Below are positions 91 to 6,205 of a stretch of DNA of 64,000 nucleotides, one piece after another (position 1 is the stretch's first letter; each line of letters begins with the position of its first letter). The stretch comes from Parapedobacter pyrenivorans (GTDB taxonomy: Bacteria > Bacteroidota > Bacteroidia > Sphingobacteriales > Sphingobacteriaceae). Where the stretch lies: the NCBI RefSeq assembly GCF_014636865.1, contig NZ_BMER01000004.1:124001-188000 (forward strand), given 5' to 3'. The notes below the pieces were generated by a model, which saw only the letters and a program-made list of their open reading frames with translations, did no database searches and was not told the origin of the DNA. The position numbers were made by a program, and so were the translations under genes.

Positions 91-122
91 ATTGCCTAGC
101 CTGCCCGGTAGCCCCATGTTTG
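91..122 (+). promoter_or_regulatory. Putative Bacteroidota promoter for the peptide/acyltransferase operon
   Basis: ATTG (91-94) is followed after 20 bases by CATGTTTG (115-122), close to the Bacteroidota consensus TTTG-N19/20-TAnnTTTG. Transcription would start near 128, about 58 bases before the ATG at 186. The spacing equals that of the promoter I infer for the CobW-type gene near 58.48 kb. No experimental support is visible. Confidence 0.45.
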
Positions 123-185
123 TGAAAGCAGGAGGGGGCCGCGCCTGTAAGGAACATAGACGGCAATTGCAAACACAAACACCAA

Positions 186-323
186 ATGGACATGGTAGAT
201 TTACTTTCCCCGCAGCTGATTGATCAGCTGCAGCAGGTGCTAAGCCAGCCAATCCCCTTTGATCAATTTCTGAAAGACGTGGATTGGGGCGATATCGAGC
301 CCTGCGATGAGTTCATCCTCTAG
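186..323 (+). CDS. Small peptide ORF (45 aa), candidate precursor peptide
   Basis: A 45-codon ORF lies between the putative promoter at 91-122 and the acyltransferase gene. It begins MDMVDLLSPQLIDQLQQ and ends DIEPCDEFIL, so it is acidic with an amphipathic first half and a single cysteine seven residues from the end. There is no signal peptide or double-glycine site. It reads as protein-like (Leu/Gln/Asp rich, no rare codons) and sits where a precursor peptide would sit relative to a modifying enzyme and a two-component system. I do not recognise the family. A role as substrate of the acyltransferase is inference, and a chance ORF in a leader is the alternative. Confidence 0.45.
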   Translation: MDMVDLLSPQLIDQLQQVLSQPIPFDQFLKDVDWGDIEPCDEFIL

Positions 324-348
324 CCCGGGTGATGGACAACACGGGTGT

Positions 349-376
349 ATTGGATGGAGCATGCACTCCATCCAAT
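349..376 (+). promoter_or_regulatory. Perfect 11-bp hairpin between peptide ORF and acyltransferase
   Basis: ATTGGATGGAG (349-359) and CTCCATCCAAT (366-376) are exact reverse complements around a 6-base loop. No T-run follows, so it is not a classic intrinsic terminator. Its place 25 bases after the peptide stop suggests an attenuator or mRNA-stabilising/processing element that lets the peptide be made in excess over the enzyme. A dimeric repressor site is an alternative. It overlaps the early ATG at 354, which argues for the ATG at 411 as true start of the next gene. Confidence 0.6.
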
Positions 377-410
377 CACCTTATTAAACCGTAACTTGAA
401 TTACCCAACC

Positions 411-1469
411 ATGGATAAGTATAGACAGACTTCACAGCGGATTGCTGAATTCGCGAATCGACTTAATCCCTTTGAAACGCCGGACCGGCTTCAGCAGTTT
501 TCACTATTCAGTGCAAACCTGACTAATTTTCTTCCGGTATTGGATTATGGATGCCACTTGCCGTTGTACCGGCAGGCTTACATCAACCAACAGCTATCCC
601 TGCTGGACGAACGTTATTTTGGGTCGCAGCTGCCGGTAGCCATCAACGGCTGGGATGATGACGTTACGGAGCGCCTACGGTCGCATCCCGGCATCATTTG
701 TACGTTTCATGCCGGTTCGTACCGCGTGATCAATTACTTGCTGGCAAAAAACAAACTGCCTTTTGCTTTGCTGATTGCCCATCGGGCGTTCGAACAGCAG
801 GGCGCAAAATTTAAACGGCTTTTTAGGTTGCTTGGGAATAACCATGGCCTTCGCCACGAGTTGCAACTGGTAGATGCCGAACAGCGGTCTACCGTGTGGC
901 AACTGATGCGTCTGCTCAAACGTGGGTATAACATTGTCTTGTACCTGGATGGTTTTACCGGATTGTCGGTAGCTGACACGGCTAAGTTGGAGCGGCTACC
1001 GTTTCTTGGCCAACACTTGTTTTTGCGCAAAGGTGCGGCATATCTTGCCCAAAAGCTAGGGGTACCGCTCCATCCAATCTATTGTACCCGCTCAGCTGAG
1101 GGAGCCATCCAATTCACGGCTAATCCCTCATTTATCCCCGCAATGGCGGACTCCGGGATTGCTTCGGAATGGGCATTATCAAAAATTCTGGATGATTTTG
1201 CGGGCATGCTGCTGCATGCTCCGGCACAATGGGAGAACTGGTTCTTTCTGCATCACCAGTTTGCAACGCAAGAACTGCGGGGTCCGTATATCTTGGATGA
1301 TGGAAACCAGGCATTTGCCGGCAATGCGCCGGAAATTTCCGAATACGGGATTGTACGTAACGGCAGGCGCTTTTTTCTGTTGAAGAAAAGGGGATATGAA
1401 ATGTATTCGTTGCCAGAATCGGCTATGCAGGCCATTTTAAACGTTTGGAAACGACAGGTGGGTTCGTGA
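411..1469 (+). CDS. LpxL/LPLAT-like acyltransferase with extra C-terminal domain
   Basis: The 352-residue product resembles the lysophospholipid/lipid A acyltransferase superfamily. It has an FHAGSYRVIN block near residue 100 at the place of the catalytic His motif, a LYLDGFTG block near 177-184, an AQKLGVPLHPIYC strand-turn near 213-225 and a WENWFFLHH block near 274-282. The usual HX4D is HX4R here, so the chemistry may differ. Residues about 308-348 form a separate segment (GIVRNGRRFFLLKKRGYEMY) that looks like a small PqqD-type peptide-binding fold, which is weak evidence. No membrane segment is evident. ATG 354 and GTG 345 are alternative starts inside a hairpin. The downstream kinase begins 40 bases after the stop. 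It may acylate the upstream 45-residue peptide (inference) or a lipid. Confidence 0.7.
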   Translation: MDKYRQTSQRIAEFANRLNPFETPDRLQQFSLFSANLTNFLPVLDYGCHLPLYRQAYINQQLSLLDERYFGSQLPVAINGWDDDVTERLRSHPGIICTFHAGSYRVINYLLAKNKLPFALLIAHRAFEQQGAKFKRLFRLLGNNHGLRHELQLVDAEQRSTVWQLMRLLKRGYNIVLYLDGFTGLSVADTAKLERLPFLGQHLFLRKGAAYLAQKLGVPLHPIYCTRSAEGAIQFTANPSFIPAMADSGIASEWALSKILDDFAGMLLHAPAQWENWFFLHHQFATQELRGPYILDDGNQAFAGNAPEISEYGIVRNGRRFFLLKKRGYEMYSLPESAMQAILNVWKRQVGS

Positions 1470-1509
1470 AAAAAATGATTCTTTGTACCTTGGGCGGAAA
1501 TCTAAATTG

Positions 1510-2598
1510 ATGAAGTCTCCAGAAAAACTTAGCGGAATTGTCCTCAGCCTATTACATGTCGGATTGATAACCTCAATGATTACGCTCAACACCGTGTACA
1601 ATCTCAAAATGCGTGAAGAAGTAAATATCGTCAATGTGTTGGCATATACGGCGCTTTCGCTGGTGGTGATATACATCCTGATGGGCAATTTTTTTCTGAT
1701 CTTCTCCAGGACAACGTGGGTGTGGGGGCTGTTGCTTATGGGCGTGGTGGTTTACGCAATTATCAAAGTGAACCATAAGTTGATTTACGACATATTTCCA
1801 TCCTCATTGAAAGTAATTCCCAATCGACAGACCGATCGCACACTGGAAGAGTTCATCATCATGGCGATACCCCGGCTGTATTATTACACCATCATTGCCC
1901 TTTTTCTCGTTGCCGCGCACCGGCTGAGTGCGGCATTGATCAATATGTTTAAGACAACACGCGAAAAACTGGAAGTGGACATTGCGCGGTTGGAGGCGGA
2001 GAAGCGTGCCCAAGAAATGGAGTTGCGCGCACTCGGCGGACATTTCAATCCGCACTTCCAGTACAATGAACTTAATGGGATAGAAGATGAACTTCTGGCC
2101 TTGATGGGCGAACAGGGAAAACCGCTTGGTCGGCGTATACAGTCGCTTGCGGATATTCTGAAGTATAATGCCGAAAATGTGTTGGAAAACCGAGCCATCG
2201 TGGTGATCGAAAAGGAGTTGGGGTTGTTGGATTTGTACCTTAACGCGAGAGACAATGGCAGGACAGATCTTAAACAGCCCGTATTACAGATTATAGGCGA
2301 GTCAGCTGGGGAGAAAATTGTAGCGATGACACTCATCTACCTGGCTGAAAACGCATATACACATGGCCGGTTTGATACCGAACCGCTTACCATCATCATC
2401 GATTTTAAGGATGACTATTTTTCCGTATGCTTCCGCAATCAGATTGGCCGCAAGAATACCAATCAAAGCGCTTCGGGAGGAGGGTTGGCGGTGGTGCGAC
2501 GACGGCTTGAATTGGCTTTCGACGACCGGTACGCCCTGGATACCCGAGTGGATGGTGATTTCTTTGAGGTGACATTAACTATTCATCAAATGCTATAA
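1510..2598 (+). CDS. LytS-type sensor histidine kinase (His_kinase family, 4 TM)
   Basis: The product has 362 residues. About four hydrophobic segments (roughly 8-28, 43-66, 70-86 and 121-143) precede a coiled linker and a His_kinase module. The H-box reads HFNPHFQYNELNGI with the phosphoacceptor His near residue 182. The N-box is LAENAYTHG and the G-box GGGLAVVRRRLEL. The canonical NPHFLFNSLN is altered to NPHFQYNELN. There is no large extracellular domain, so a membrane-soluble or lipidic ligand would fit. I chose ATG 1510 over the upstream TTG at 1483. The response regulator starts 3 bases after the stop, indicating a cognate pair. Confidence 0.9.
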   Translation: MKSPEKLSGIVLSLLHVGLITSMITLNTVYNLKMREEVNIVNVLAYTALSLVVIYILMGNFFLIFSRTTWVWGLLLMGVVVYAIIKVNHKLIYDIFPSSLKVIPNRQTDRTLEEFIIMAIPRLYYYTIIALFLVAAHRLSAALINMFKTTREKLEVDIARLEAEKRAQEMELRALGGHFNPHFQYNELNGIEDELLALMGEQGKPLGRRIQSLADILKYNAENVLENRAIVVIEKELGLLDLYLNARDNGRTDLKQPVLQIIGESAGEKIVAMTLIYLAENAYTHGRFDTEPLTIIIDFKDDYFSVCFRNQIGRKNTNQSASGGGLAVVRRRLELAFDDRYALDTRVDGDFFEVTLTIHQML

Positions 2599-2601
2599 CT
2601 T

Positions 2602-3342
2602 ATGCCAGTATTTAAAGTATATATCTTAGATGACGATCCCCGTGCCGTAAGGAAACTCAGTAGGTTGGTATACGATAACCCGAACCTACTGCTCGTCGGC
2701 TCGCAAACCGATCCGGAGGCCGGCCTGTTAGAAATCGCGCGGTTTAAACCGGACATTCTTTTGCTTGACCTGGAAATGACGCCGTTATCGGGATGGGAGG
2801 TGATCCTTCGGCTGGACAAAGGGGTGAAGGTAATTCTATGCACGGCCGATGCCCGCGCCGGTAGCCAATCCTATGAAGTGTCTGCCGCCGATTACCTGGT
2901 AAAGCCTTTTTCGGGAGCTCGGTTTAATGAGGCGATTCTGCGCGCATCGGGTGCGTTGGAGAAGCGGCCTACGCCGGCCATCCTCGGCCATGAAACGTTA
3001 TATTTTACAGCCGGGGGTGCTTCGAACCCGGTGGAGATAAACCCACTTGATATCGAAATGATTGAAGCCTGCGACCATCGTTGCCGCATTTTCCATACCT
3101 ATGATGCCATATTGGTTGACCAAAGTTTCAAAGAGGTGGAACGGATGCTTCCTGCTTCATTGTTTATGCGGATCCACAAGAGTTTTATGATCTCGCTCAA
3201 ACGATACTATCGCCACCAAAATGGCAAGGTGTACCTGAAGAACGTGGAGCACGAGGCGTGCAAAGTGGTGCCGATCGGTGACAAATACGGGCCTAAATTT
3301 TACCAGTATCTGCTAGACAAACAGCATAAAACAACAGAATAA
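2602..3342 (+). CDS. LytTR-family response regulator
   Basis: This 246-residue protein has an N-terminal receiver domain with acidic DDD at 10-12, phosphoacceptor Asp56 in LLLDLEM and conserved Lys101 in VKPF. A C-terminal LytTR DNA-binding domain (about 150-240) carries the typical FMRIHKSFMI block. It is the evident partner of the kinase just upstream. LytTR regulators commonly bind pairs of imperfect direct repeats, so targets are expected near this locus. The next gene begins 1 base after the stop, so the genes are translationally linked. Confidence 0.92.
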   Translation: MPVFKVYILDDDPRAVRKLSRLVYDNPNLLLVGSQTDPEAGLLEIARFKPDILLLDLEMTPLSGWEVILRLDKGVKVILCTADARAGSQSYEVSAADYLVKPFSGARFNEAILRASGALEKRPTPAILGHETLYFTAGGASNPVEINPLDIEMIEACDHRCRIFHTYDAILVDQSFKEVERMLPASLFMRIHKSFMISLKRYYRHQNGKVYLKNVEHEACKVVPIGDKYGPKFYQYLLDKQHKTTE

Positions 3343-3343
3343 C

Positions 3344-3919
3344 ATGTTATTACATAAATTGGAAAACATCGGCCAGCAGGTGGATGTAGTGCGTCGTCGA
3401 TTGGAAAATACGGCTGACTTAAATGATGACATAACAGCTTTAAATAGTATGTCTTACAATGCATTATCTGAATTAGGGGAGCGCTATCAGCGTTTGGGAG
3501 ATAGCCTTAATGCAAGGCGGAACCTGCAGGAAGCGATTCAGCCTGCCTTGGAGCTACCTATTGAAGCGAGGCGCATGTATGTGCTGGATCAATTGTCGTT
3601 TTATGAGCGTTTTGTCAGCGAAATGATGACTTTCCTGACGGGCAGTGACTATGGCCGGTGTATTAGTTTTTCATTGTCGGTAGAAGAACTCCTTTTTTTT
3701 CTTCGCCTTGTGCTCGAAGAGCAGGTAATGGATGCCGGAGCCCTCAAACCGATATTTCTCTTCCTGAGTAGACATGCGAGGACAAGCGGCAGTGACACGC
3801 TGTCTTACGAGAGTCTCCGGAAAAAGTATAGCGCCGTGGGCGAAGGCGCCAAGAAAAGAGTGGCCGCGCTGATGGCTAACTTGACGGATCGCGCCGCACA
3901 TCATGCACGGCACGATTGA
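3344..3919 (+). CDS. Hypothetical helical protein in the two-component operon
   Basis: The product is a 191-residue, mostly helical, soluble protein with no signal peptide or membrane segment. The N-terminal third looks coiled-coil or TPR-like, a hydrophobic leucine-rich segment lies near 108-125 (SVEELLFFLRLVLEEQ), and the basic C-terminal part contains SYESLRKKYSAV. I do not recognise a function. It starts 1 base after the response regulator, so it is probably co-transcribed and may be an accessory or output protein of that system. The C-terminal part vaguely recalls proteins that sit beside HTH genes in Bacteroidota mobile elements, which is a weak impression only. Confidence 0.75.
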   Translation: MLLHKLENIGQQVDVVRRRLENTADLNDDITALNSMSYNALSELGERYQRLGDSLNARRNLQEAIQPALELPIEARRMYVLDQLSFYERFVSEMMTFLTGSDYGRCISFSLSVEELLFFLRLVLEEQVMDAGALKPIFLFLSRHARTSGSDTLSYESLRKKYSAVGEGAKKRVAALMANLTDRAAHHARHD

Positions 3920-3971: not shown

Positions 3972-4271
3972 ATGGAAAACAATCCCTATCTTTCGTATCC
4001 CGGCAAAGGCAAAAATGTGATGGAAGCCATCTTCCCGTTGCTCAACCTGCTTGCCGAACTACTCAAACGTCTCCTCGCTGGTCTGGGAAACCCAGCCCAC
4101 AAGCATGGATTGCTACTACCTGAGGAAGTAACCATGATGCTGCGCATCAGCATCCGCACGCTGCGACGCTACAACGAACGCGGCATCCTGCAACCGCTTC
4201 GCATCGGCGGTATGCGGTATTACCTGATGAGCGATATCATAGAATCGGGTAGGCGAGGAAACACCGGTTGA
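3972..4271 (+). CDS. Small HTH (excisionase/MerR-like) DNA-binding protein
   Basis: The product has 99 residues. A leucine-rich amphipathic N-terminal stretch (about 16-34) is followed by an HTH_17-type domain in which LLLPEEVTMMLRISIRTLRR is the helix-turn-helix and GILQPLRIGGMRYYLMSDI the wing. Proteins of this kind act as excisionases or small regulators in Bacteroidota. No integrase is present in the window. It is followed at once by a strong hairpin and the 11-bp phased array, which makes it a candidate binder of that array (inference from position only). Confidence 0.75.
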   Translation: MENNPYLSYPGKGKNVMEAIFPLLNLLAELLKRLLAGLGNPAHKHGLLLPEEVTMMLRISIRTLRRYNERGILQPLRIGGMRYYLMSDIIESGRRGNTG

Positions 4272-4648: not shown

Positions 4649-4953
4649 ACGCGTTGCTGATCGTTTCGGTATTGTCGTGCTCCAAGGAGGATATGGGCAA
4701 CGAAATTCCGGCTTGTGTGCTGAAGAAAGTAAACGAACTGAAAGCAAATGATGAAGGCCCGCAAGGCGTATCCATGAGTGAATACCTTTTCGAAGGGCGT
4801 CGTGTATACGTGGAAAACAAAGGGACCTTCGCGCTTGTCTACGATAAAAATTGCAATACCATCGGCATGCTCGGTGGCTTTGCCGGAAATACGAAGGTAA
4901 ACGGCCGCGATTTCGCAGAAGCCAAACTCACCCGCGAAATTTGGAAACGCTAA
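4627..4953 (+). CDS. Small lipoprotein, DUF6970-like
   Basis: This 108-residue lipoprotein has a lipobox at VLSC (Cys about residue 18) followed by SKED, a charged start typical of Bacteroidota lipoproteins. The mature part contains YLFEGRRVYVE and GMLGGFAGNTKVNGRDF, recalling DUF6970-like domains of unknown function. The N-terminal 12 codons and the 5' leader are nearly the same as those of the lipoprotein gene at 10161, while the mature domains are unrelated. Downstream it converges with the TlpA-like gene. The family assignment rests on my recall of the motif. Confidence 0.75.
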   Translation: MKRITALYALLIVSVLSCSKEDMGNEIPACVLKKVNELKANDEGPQGVSMSEYLFEGRRVYVENKGTFALVYDKNCNTIGMLGGFAGNTKVNGRDFAEAKLTREIWKR

Positions 4954-5038
4954 TAGCACTGAAAAACCAACCCAACGATGGCCAACCCAGTGGATTCACT
5001 TCACTATGAATGATAGGAGGGTAGTGCAAACGTCGGTG

Positions 5039-6205
5039 CTAATCCAGTTGTTCCAGCAGCGCCGTCACTTCTTCTGGTGTAGGATCTACCGCGAGTATTT
5101 GTTTATCGCCATCCACCAGCACCATGGCACCACCGAGGTTGGTAATTCCGTACTTGTGCCACACGCCGTATTGGCTTTCCAGATCCACCAGGTTCACTTG
5201 CCAAGGGAGCTGCTCTCGCTCTAGTAATGCCTCAAGCGATTGCGTATCCCGGAGTTCCCGGGCGATATTGATAATACCGAACCCCTTATCCTTGAAGACT
5301 TCATAGACCGGCACCATGGTACGAGCCTTGCTGATACAGGGGCCGCACCACGAGGCCCAGAAATTGAGCAGCGTGGCCTTGGGTGCCAGAAGCGTATCGG
5401 CCAGCACCAGCTTGCCGGTTAGGTCTTCGGCCTTGAAGGGGATGTATTGCTTGCCCTCCTCCAGTTGGTACTTGCCGTTGAGATAGGTGCCGATCATATC
5501 GGTATACGGGTGATCCGGAAAACGGGCTGCAAAAGTGGAATAGTGCTTATTAGCGGTTTTGAGGGAATGGGCGTCGTCTTCAGCCATCAGTATCAAATCC
5601 TTGATGAGCTGGTAAGACACCAGCGTGGGGTGCTCGCTGATGTAAGCGTCTACCCAGCCCAGGTAATCGATATTCAATAGGGAGTCTTGCGTGGTTGCCT
5701 CCGCCTCGGCTAGTTGGCCTGCTGCTACAAGATCCCGCAGGCTATCAATCTGTACCTCGCGGGTGGCTACCTGCTGTTGGAGATCGGCCCGGATGCGGTG
5801 GTATTCGGTGGTCAGCGGGCTGCCGGTAACCGTATTCTCCGCGTAGCGCTCGCCGGGGTAGAGCGTTACGTAAATGTCTGGCTCCGGAAAGATAACGTAG
5901 GCTCTCAAAAAACCTTCGAAATTTTCTTCGGGTATAAGCATGTAGGCCGCAGCGCTTTTGGCAGGCAGGGTAAAAAAGAACTTGCCATCGATGACCGGCA
6001 CAATGAGCTGATTGGAATAGGGATGCTCATGGGCTTTGCAAACGACAATGTTTTTGCTGTTGCCATCAACCAGCTCGCCGGCAACGAGGTAAGTATCCTG
6101 CATGGTGGGCGTATGTTCGCCGCGTTTTACGGTCTGGGCAGTAGTGGTGGTTACGCAGGCGGCCAGGCAAATCGCCGATGCGGCGAATAGGGTAGTGATG
6201 TTCAT
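5039..6205 (-). CDS. TlpA-like thioredoxin-fold protein (exported)
   Basis: This 388-residue protein has a signal peptide (LFAASAICLAACVTTTTAQ), an N-terminal beta-rich DUF4369-like region (about 40-120), a helical middle, and a C-terminal AhpC/TSA or redoxin domain from about 260. The active site is WCGPC at 286-290, preceded by LLNFWAS. Proteins of this type act in the periplasm as thiol-disulfide reductases. Cys17 lies in a possible lipobox (CLAAC), so it may be lipid-anchored. It is transcribed alone, away from the siderophore receptor gene, with which it shares a 366-base intergenic region. Confidence 0.88.
   Translation of the reverse strand: MNITTLFAASAICLAACVTTTTAQTVKRGEHTPTMQDTYLVAGELVDGNSKNIVVCKAHEHPYSNQLIVPVIDGKFFFTLPAKSAAAYMLIPEENFEGFLRAYVIFPEPDIYVTLYPGERYAENTVTGSPLTTEYHRIRADLQQQVATREVQIDSLRDLVAAGQLAEAEATTQDSLLNIDYLGWVDAYISEHPTLVSYQLIKDLILMAEDDAHSLKTANKHYSTFAARFPDHPYTDMIGTYLNGKYQLEEGKQYIPFKAEDLTGKLVLADTLLAPKATLLNFWASWCGPCISKARTMVPVYEVFKDKGFGIINIARELRDTQSLEALLEREQLPWQVNLVDLESQYGVWHKYGITNLGGAMVLVDGDKQILAVDPTPEEVTALLEQLD

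Follow-up and report, generated by a model that had tools for sequence, protein, structure and literature searches.

The window analysed here is a 64,000-nucleotide stretch of the Parapedobacter pyrenivorans genome (contig NZ_BMER01000004.1, positions 124,001 to 188,000). It starts in an intergenic region, which is followed by a plus-strand run of genes encoding a small peptide, an LPLAT-like acyltransferase, a LytS-type membrane histidine kinase, a LytTR response regulator, a helical protein and an HTH_17-like protein, with a hairpin between the first two genes (Table 1). An initial annotation had described positions 91 to 3919 as a candidate lipopeptide signalling operon, in which the acyltransferase lipidates the peptide and the kinase senses it. 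The small open reading frame (ORF), the perfect hairpin, the acyltransferase, the kinase, the LytTR regulator and the helical protein were all located as claimed, and the gaps of 3 bases between kinase and regulator and 1 base between regulator and helical protein agree with the tight spacing described for the last three genes. The four membrane segments assigned to the kinase were likewise seen in a simple hydropathy scan, and its PF06580 match lies above the cut-off. The unit reaches past this region, as the HTH_17-like gene lies downstream of it.

Co-occurrence of the genes and conservation of the peptide

Two profile searches, one of the Sphingobacteriaceae and one phylum-wide, listed 131 places with the acyltransferase family (profile built from 23 acyltransferase sequences; match threshold E 1e-15). 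The 65 loci studied are a hand-picked, non-random choice from these, guided by score and diversity. L006 and L032 are one place, and only L032 enters the counts; L049 and L050 (E 2.1e-5 and 1.6e-4), which follow an acyl carrier protein-like ORF and carry H.GNWE, were removed before counting. A PF06580 kinase was present in 55 of the 65 loci and a LytTR regulator in 53. Peptide, acyltransferase, kinase and regulator occurred together in 47 loci, with other genes between them in L047 and L103, so the co-occurrence expected from the initial annotation was found. This grouping exceeds chance. The phosphoacceptor His182 was invariant in 25 aligned kinases, and the pairing of a PF06580 kinase carrying this conserved His with a Response_reg-LytTR partner is that of a LytS/LytTR two-component system.

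Table 1. Features at the start of the window (positions counted from its first base)
Feature	Position	Strand	Remark
CATGTTTG, resembling the Bacteroidota -7 box	115-122	+	By resemblance
Possible H-type pseudoknot, arms CAGG/CCTG (129-132, 144-147) and GCCG/CGGC (138-141, 161-164)	129-164	+
Gene for the 45-aa precursor peptide	186-323	+	Counterparts at other loci, among them L006 of Parapedobacter indicus
CDEFIL C-terminus, presumed modified core, Cys at -6	303-320	+	Cys at -6 or -7 in most curated peptides
Hairpin with perfect 11-bp stem, between peptide stop and acyltransferase start	348-379	+	Putative attenuator or partial terminator
LPLAT/LpxL-like acyltransferase; His100 invariant, Arg105 in place of the acid	411-1469	+
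LytS-type (PF06580) membrane histidine kinase, phosphoacceptor His182	1510-2598	+
Response_reg + LytTR regulator, both domains above cut-off	2602-3342	+
Helical 191-aa protein, no confident family	3344-3919	+
HTH_17/MerR-like DNA-binding protein	3972-4271	+	HTH_17 E 1.2e-5, 25.9 bits, cut-off 27

After curation, a small ORF was found directly upstream of the acyltransferase in 54 of the 65 loci, so that a gene-encoded precursor stands beside a presumed modifying enzyme, as in ribosomally synthesized and post-translationally modified peptide (RiPP) systems. The curated peptides are 21 to 60 residues long (median 43), and 45 of the 54 have a single Cys. The last Cys lies at -6 in 29 peptides and at -7 in 13 (together 42/54) and is preceded by Lys in 37 and by Arg in 3 (40/54); acidic residues are enriched just ahead of it (3.0 vs 1.3 per 12). 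Since the peptide starts and cores had been set by eye, we also scanned the upstream regions for the pattern [KR]C-x5-6-stop. With L102 and L104-L107 excluded, 38 of 60 acyltransferases had it upstream, compared to 28 of 3286 windows drawn at random from the same loci; the pattern itself had been derived from these loci.

Purifying selection acts on related peptide genes. Eight non-overlapping peptide pairs gave a pooled nonsynonymous rate (Ka) of 0.135 and a synonymous rate (Ks) of 0.784, a ratio of 0.17; of 19 pairs tried, 13 had finite Ka/Ks values (0.03-0.52) and six had saturated Ks. Between the window's peptide and its two orthologues Ks was saturated and Ka was 0.47-0.48. Conservation at the other acyltransferase loci, together with the selection on related peptides, indicates that the 45-codon ORF is a real gene, as had been proposed. 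The cores are diverse, with 44 distinct ones among the 54 peptides. The window's genome alone has five acyltransferase loci with five different peptide ends, and the P. indicus peptide ends in CDEFIF where that of the window ends in CDEFIL. Among paralogues the layout of the core stays constant and its letters differ.

Several loci carry other kinds of small ORF. L101, outside the 54, has a likely peptide with the end SSPCRIFFPFL; precursor-like ORFs of a different kind occur in L102, L106 and L107, and a different small ORF lies upstream in L104 and L105. In L105, which comes from a genome of another family, two tandem 50-aa ORFs with identical translations precede the acyltransferase (4765-5131, oriented coordinates), and L104 carries a related ORF. 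L126 has several acyltransferase copies in tandem, two of them shorter. Every copy comes with a peptide of its own (CNFYYV, CNLYYL, CNLYYL), and the locus gave no kinase match; it is possibly an array of peptide variants.

The acyltransferase, the peptide leaders and the neighbourhood

The window's acyltransferase matched PF01553 and PF03279, both below the cut-off, and its Pfam and NCBIfam matches were to LPLAT/lipid A acyltransferase families only, and weak. The profile of PatA (5f2t) matched with E 2.4e-6. The structure model was poor (predicted local distance difference test score, pLDDT, 48.9), and with it PatA/LpxM took Foldseek ranks 1-13 (best E 7.2e-5, TM score 0.3-0.4), while VIA-align gave PatA Z 9.2 (root-mean-square deviation 6.7, 185 aligned) against up to Z 7.9 for unrelated signal recognition particle GTPases. 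The enzyme shares sequence similarity and modelled fold with the LPLAT superfamily. HX4D/E is the catalytic dyad of this (LpxL/PatA) superfamily. The His is kept in 42 of 42 acyltransferases, the acid at +5 is present in 1 of 42, and the position is mostly Arg or Gln (32/42). In LpxM, the title of structure entry 5knk names E127 as catalytic. Across 23 aligned sequences there is no variation at His100, Gly102 or Asp180 and almost none at Gly181; 18 of the 23 have a C-terminal extension of ~60 aa. This extension was tried as a PqqD-like leader-binding domain; it matched no family, and its poor model consists of three strands and a helix.

The same genome encodes four other lipid A acyltransferase (Lip_A) homologues, all above the cut-off and with HxGN(W/F)E intact, which makes a peptide the better reading of the enzyme's substrate. 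The initial annotation would have fallen had the enzyme proved to act on lipid A or phospholipid; the four homologues favour a peptide, and acylation itself is a step that we infer. A thiol acceptor would suit an enzyme that has no hydroxyl to activate. A peptide-modifying role is the best reading of the acyltransferase.

At some of the loci, distant homologues of the acyltransferase adjoin radical-SAM/SPASM and M50-type proteins (L106, L107) or an M50-type protein alone (L102). Precursor-like ORFs, for instance ...GEPTCVINTCQC, lie next to them. Most of the M50 and daptide-protease matches there fall below curated cut-offs. These clusters are candidates for making acylated RiPPs.

The leaders upstream of the peptide genes share several elements. 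The promoter-like element of the initial annotation, CATGTTTG, was found in 7 of 54 peptide leaders (besides the window, in L028, L029, L031, L039, L042 and L122) and in 11 of 2860 windows elsewhere. Its enrichment stands; its status as a promoter is a matter of resemblance to the Bacteroidota -7 consensus. The palindrome GTGATCAC, chosen as the commonest one, occurred in 13 of 54 leaders, some from near-relatives, vs 19 of 3404 windows elsewhere. It lies a few bases past a TTTG-containing -7-like box and 65-101 nt before the peptide start (e.g. L028, L036, L045, L123), and is a candidate operator.

Between peptide and acyltransferase, 34 of 43 loci tested had a hairpin with z < -2, with differing stem sequences (the test took gaps of 35-130 bases, which excluded 11 of the 54); in the window's gap z was -3.6. 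An H-type pseudoknot in the peptide leader is suggested by 18 of 54 loci, some of them near-relatives, in which at most 3 of 60 shuffles scored as well (3.5 loci expected), and by unlike yet complementary arms in L034, L037, L040, L045, L109 and others. The window's own pseudoknot is not significant by itself (21 of 60 shuffles equally good), and the best fold in, for example, L031, L032 and L027 differs from that drawn by eye in the window.

The Rfam RNA DUF805b was found in five leaders (L029, L041, L043, L095, L129) among 21 loci scanned. The window gave no match at the gathering score, and its first 420 bases gave none up to E 10. DUF805b was considered as a mark specific to the acyltransferase-peptide system and rejected: it lies ahead of numerous genes of other kinds, and it is found at E 1e-6 in 188 of 301 family genomes, with a match over the cut-off in 166. 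At 30 places with DUF805b (RF02914; L134-L163), judged by eye, it precedes double-glycine bacteriocin-type precursors in 7 and DUF6520-like secreted proteins in about 9, two of these from an internal start; the rest are other or doubtful ORFs. DUF805b may be a common leader of secreted peptides in the Sphingobacteriaceae.

The system is patchily distributed. In the named genome collection, the sole relative was that of P. indicus (Sphingobacteriaceae), with 40% acyltransferase identity and the same gene order, and a plasmid collection gave no match. A single-protein search matched 12 of 60 genomes, its own included. The profile search matched 64 of 301 Sphingobacteriaceae genomes (5 of 25 genera) and, across the phylum, 6 of 395, its own included.

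Upstream of the window, the same genome encodes a thioredoxin-like/DUF3738 protein, SusC and SusD; then come, on the opposite strand, a small protein that looks secreted and a regulator of the cNMP-binding (Crp) type. SusD lies upstream in 41 of the 65 loci, a few stretches being too short to tell, and MauE, Crp-type and AraC-type genes were found in 24, 24 and 17 of 63 loci. Eight MauE matches were found in the window's genome, of which six exceed the cut-off and three adjoin acyltransferase loci. Small secreted-looking proteins on the opposite strand were picked in 32 SusD-bearing loci, 26 with two Cys; that of the window's locus has three. No fewer than three picks (L034, L041, L090) are proteins of another kind. 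One of these proteins matches DUF6520 below the cut-off, and the window's gives no DUF6520 match. Together with SusCD, MauE and Crp/AraC regulators, such proteins (L051:10412-10759 and counterparts) form a recurrent module.

The helical protein had profile matches in 22 of 65 loci, some to longer proteins, and its fold model is poor (pLDDT 44.6). An RteC-like identity, suspected by eye, was dropped after profile comparison gave a probability of only 0.6%. HTH_17-like relatives lie at the equivalent position in 18 of 63 loci.

A possible self-sensing peptide circuit and its alternatives

The arrangement suggests a locus that both produces a modified peptide and senses it, a reading to which we give a little less than an even chance as a whole. 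In the precursor, an N-terminal part would serve for recognition and a C-terminal part (CDEFIL, with its one Cys) as the core; the precursor would be made in excess over the enzyme because the hairpin after the peptide gene limits read-through. The LPLAT-fold enzyme would then acylate the core, most likely at the Cys, either on the thiol or on the amino group after a cut before the Cys, and the product would leave the cell by an unspecified route. The LytS-type kinase would sense it in the membrane and activate the LytTR regulator, which would probably act on its own operon and on the neighbouring genes for SusC/SusD, the small secreted protein and MauE. With different cores in its paralogous copies, one cell could keep several channels apart. 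That the peptide is the enzyme's substrate seems to us quite probable; given this, the odds lean modestly towards sensing by the neighbouring kinase, through which signalling likely runs. From the initial annotation, the conserved and selected peptide gene has held, and we infer the acylation, export and sensing steps. A broader version appears somewhat unlikely to us: a large family of S- or N-acylated Cys peptides serving as Bacteroidota autoinducers, made by LPLAT-like enzymes whose acid was swapped to Arg for thiol acylation, with up to five peptide-kinase channels per cell governing SusCD-dependent uptake or secreted-protein release.

A number of observations weigh against a self-sensing circuit. 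For seven of the 54 peptides, the adjoining acyltransferase lacks a complete kinase-regulator pair (L036, L096, L120, L123 and the three L126 copies), and no recognisable peptide was found upstream of the acyltransferase in L090, L093 and L108. Individual peptides also depart from the pattern: in the window's own, Pro precedes the Cys, so it misses [KR]C; the L044 frame (end ...VPKCHFFPF, upstream of 5298) is broken by an in-frame stop; L121 has a peptide-like ORF without Cys; and in L127 the Cys is the final residue. L095 and L097, from one genome, share the core CIPYEGL, which speaks against separate channels there. The kinases vary in topology, with two predicted membrane segments in 23 of 55, three in 21, four in 10 and one in 1. 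Loss of the catalytic acid in 41 of 42 acyltransferases means that enzyme activity is not assured, and no exporter or protease gene was found among the recurrent neighbours of the studied loci.

Covariation of peptide and sensor, named in the initial annotation as a check, was present and modest. In 42 loci, whole-peptide distances correlated with those of the kinase sensor part (rho 0.32, reached in 0 of 300 permutations) compared to 0.10 for the catalytic part (20/300) and 0.20 for the acyltransferase. Both halves of the regulator, at 0.27 each (0/300), tracked the peptide nearly as well, so the sensor is not singled out. For the core, values were 0.16 against the sensor (6/300), 0.08 against the catalytic part and 0.18 against the acyltransferase, and the partial correlation of core and sensor was 0.15, matched by 10 of 300 permutations. 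Because linked genes share history, such covariation lends weak support to sensing.

The acylated peptide might instead be an end product that is secreted (a surfactant, an antimicrobial, or a binder of metal or haem), perhaps recovered via SusCD, with the kinase and regulator sensing envelope stress, a nutrient or a competitor. We consider this unlikely. The frequency of SusD and MauE and the small secreted-looking proteins nearby speak for it. PMC12636315 reports diacylglycerol (DAG)-RiPP clusters of Bacteroidota as often co-occurring with SusCD, and the DUF805b leaders of some of our peptides also precede, by eye, double-glycine bacteriocin-type precursors. However, kinase (55/65) and regulator (53/65) are more constant than SusD (41/65), L095, L097, L099 and L100 have signalling genes with no SusD in the examined stretch, and the very short cores would seem better suited to a signal.

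Nor need the peptide leave the cell at all: it could be an intracellular regulator or anchor of the acyltransferase or kinase, the acyltransferase being dead or having another substrate. The lost HX4D/E acid, the lack of an exporter or protease among recurrent neighbours and the acidic stretch ahead of the Cys are consistent with this, whereas His100, Gly102, Asp180 and Gly181 would be superfluous in a dead scaffold, the kept layout and varying letters of paralogous cores are pheromone-like, and homologues occur in RiPP-like clusters; we regard it as improbable. We see as highly improbable a conventional acyltransferase for lipid A, phospholipids or lipoamino acids, with no relation between it and the ORF. 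The weak PF01553/PF03279 matches, the PatA profile and the fold similarity to PatA/LpxM point that way, but 54 of 65 loci have the small gene upstream and selection acts on it, the enzyme has lost its catalytic acid, four lipid A acyltransferase homologues exist elsewhere in the genome, and the distribution is patchy.

The family offers dozens of precursor-enzyme-kinase sets open to direct test. It also holds a candidate new class of peptide lipidation enzyme and what may be a regulator of those SusCD modules for which no regulator is known. PMC12181424 reports genetic tools for Pedobacter and nonribosomal peptide synthetase lipopeptides.

Relation to known systems

Among the papers inspected from searches of the open-licence PMC literature, none dealt with an acyltransferase-peptide-kinase system or a Bacteroidota peptide autoinducer. 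Peptide quorum sensing is known chiefly from Gram-positive bacteria, and in Bacteroidota we are aware of no peptide autoinducer system that has been defined. Fatty-acylated RiPPs (selidamides, lipolanthines, nostolysamides), made by GNAT-type or other enzymes, resemble the presumed product in joining a ribosomal peptide to a lipid, as do DAG-RiPPs. The latter are reported in PMC12636315 as lipoprotein-RiPP hybrids of Bacteroidota made through the lipoprotein pathway, often near SusCD. The present loci differ from both in having an LPLAT homologue and a Cys near the C-terminus, not in a lipobox. The enzyme itself shares sequence profile, fold and invariant His with PatA and LpxM and differs in its replaced acid, its peptide gene context and its C-terminal extension.

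Three-component bacteriocin regulation in lactic acid bacteria combines a pheromone, a kinase and a LytTR regulator. The present loci are alike in their short peptide, kinase and LytTR regulator, often with small secreted-looking protein genes nearby; they differ in that no double-glycine leader or ABC exporter was seen, and in the acyltransferase between the peptide and kinase genes, by which the loci were found. ComQXPA has the ComQ prenyltransferase and the LuxR-type regulator ComA; here, an LPLAT-like enzyme and a LytTR regulator are present, and no conserved Trp was found in the cores of the 54 curated peptides. Agr (AgrBDCA) has one Cys near the peptide C-terminus and a LytTR regulator, as at this locus; its AgrB-type membrane protease has no counterpart among the recurrent neighbours, and the enzyme matches LPLAT families only. 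With both Agr and ComQXPA the present system shares the joint encoding of peptide, modifying enzyme, membrane kinase and regulator. It is set apart by an LPLAT-like enzyme in place of protease or prenyltransferase, by its PF06580 kinase, and by its occurrence in a Gram-negative phylum, in several non-identical copies per genome and often with SusCD alongside.

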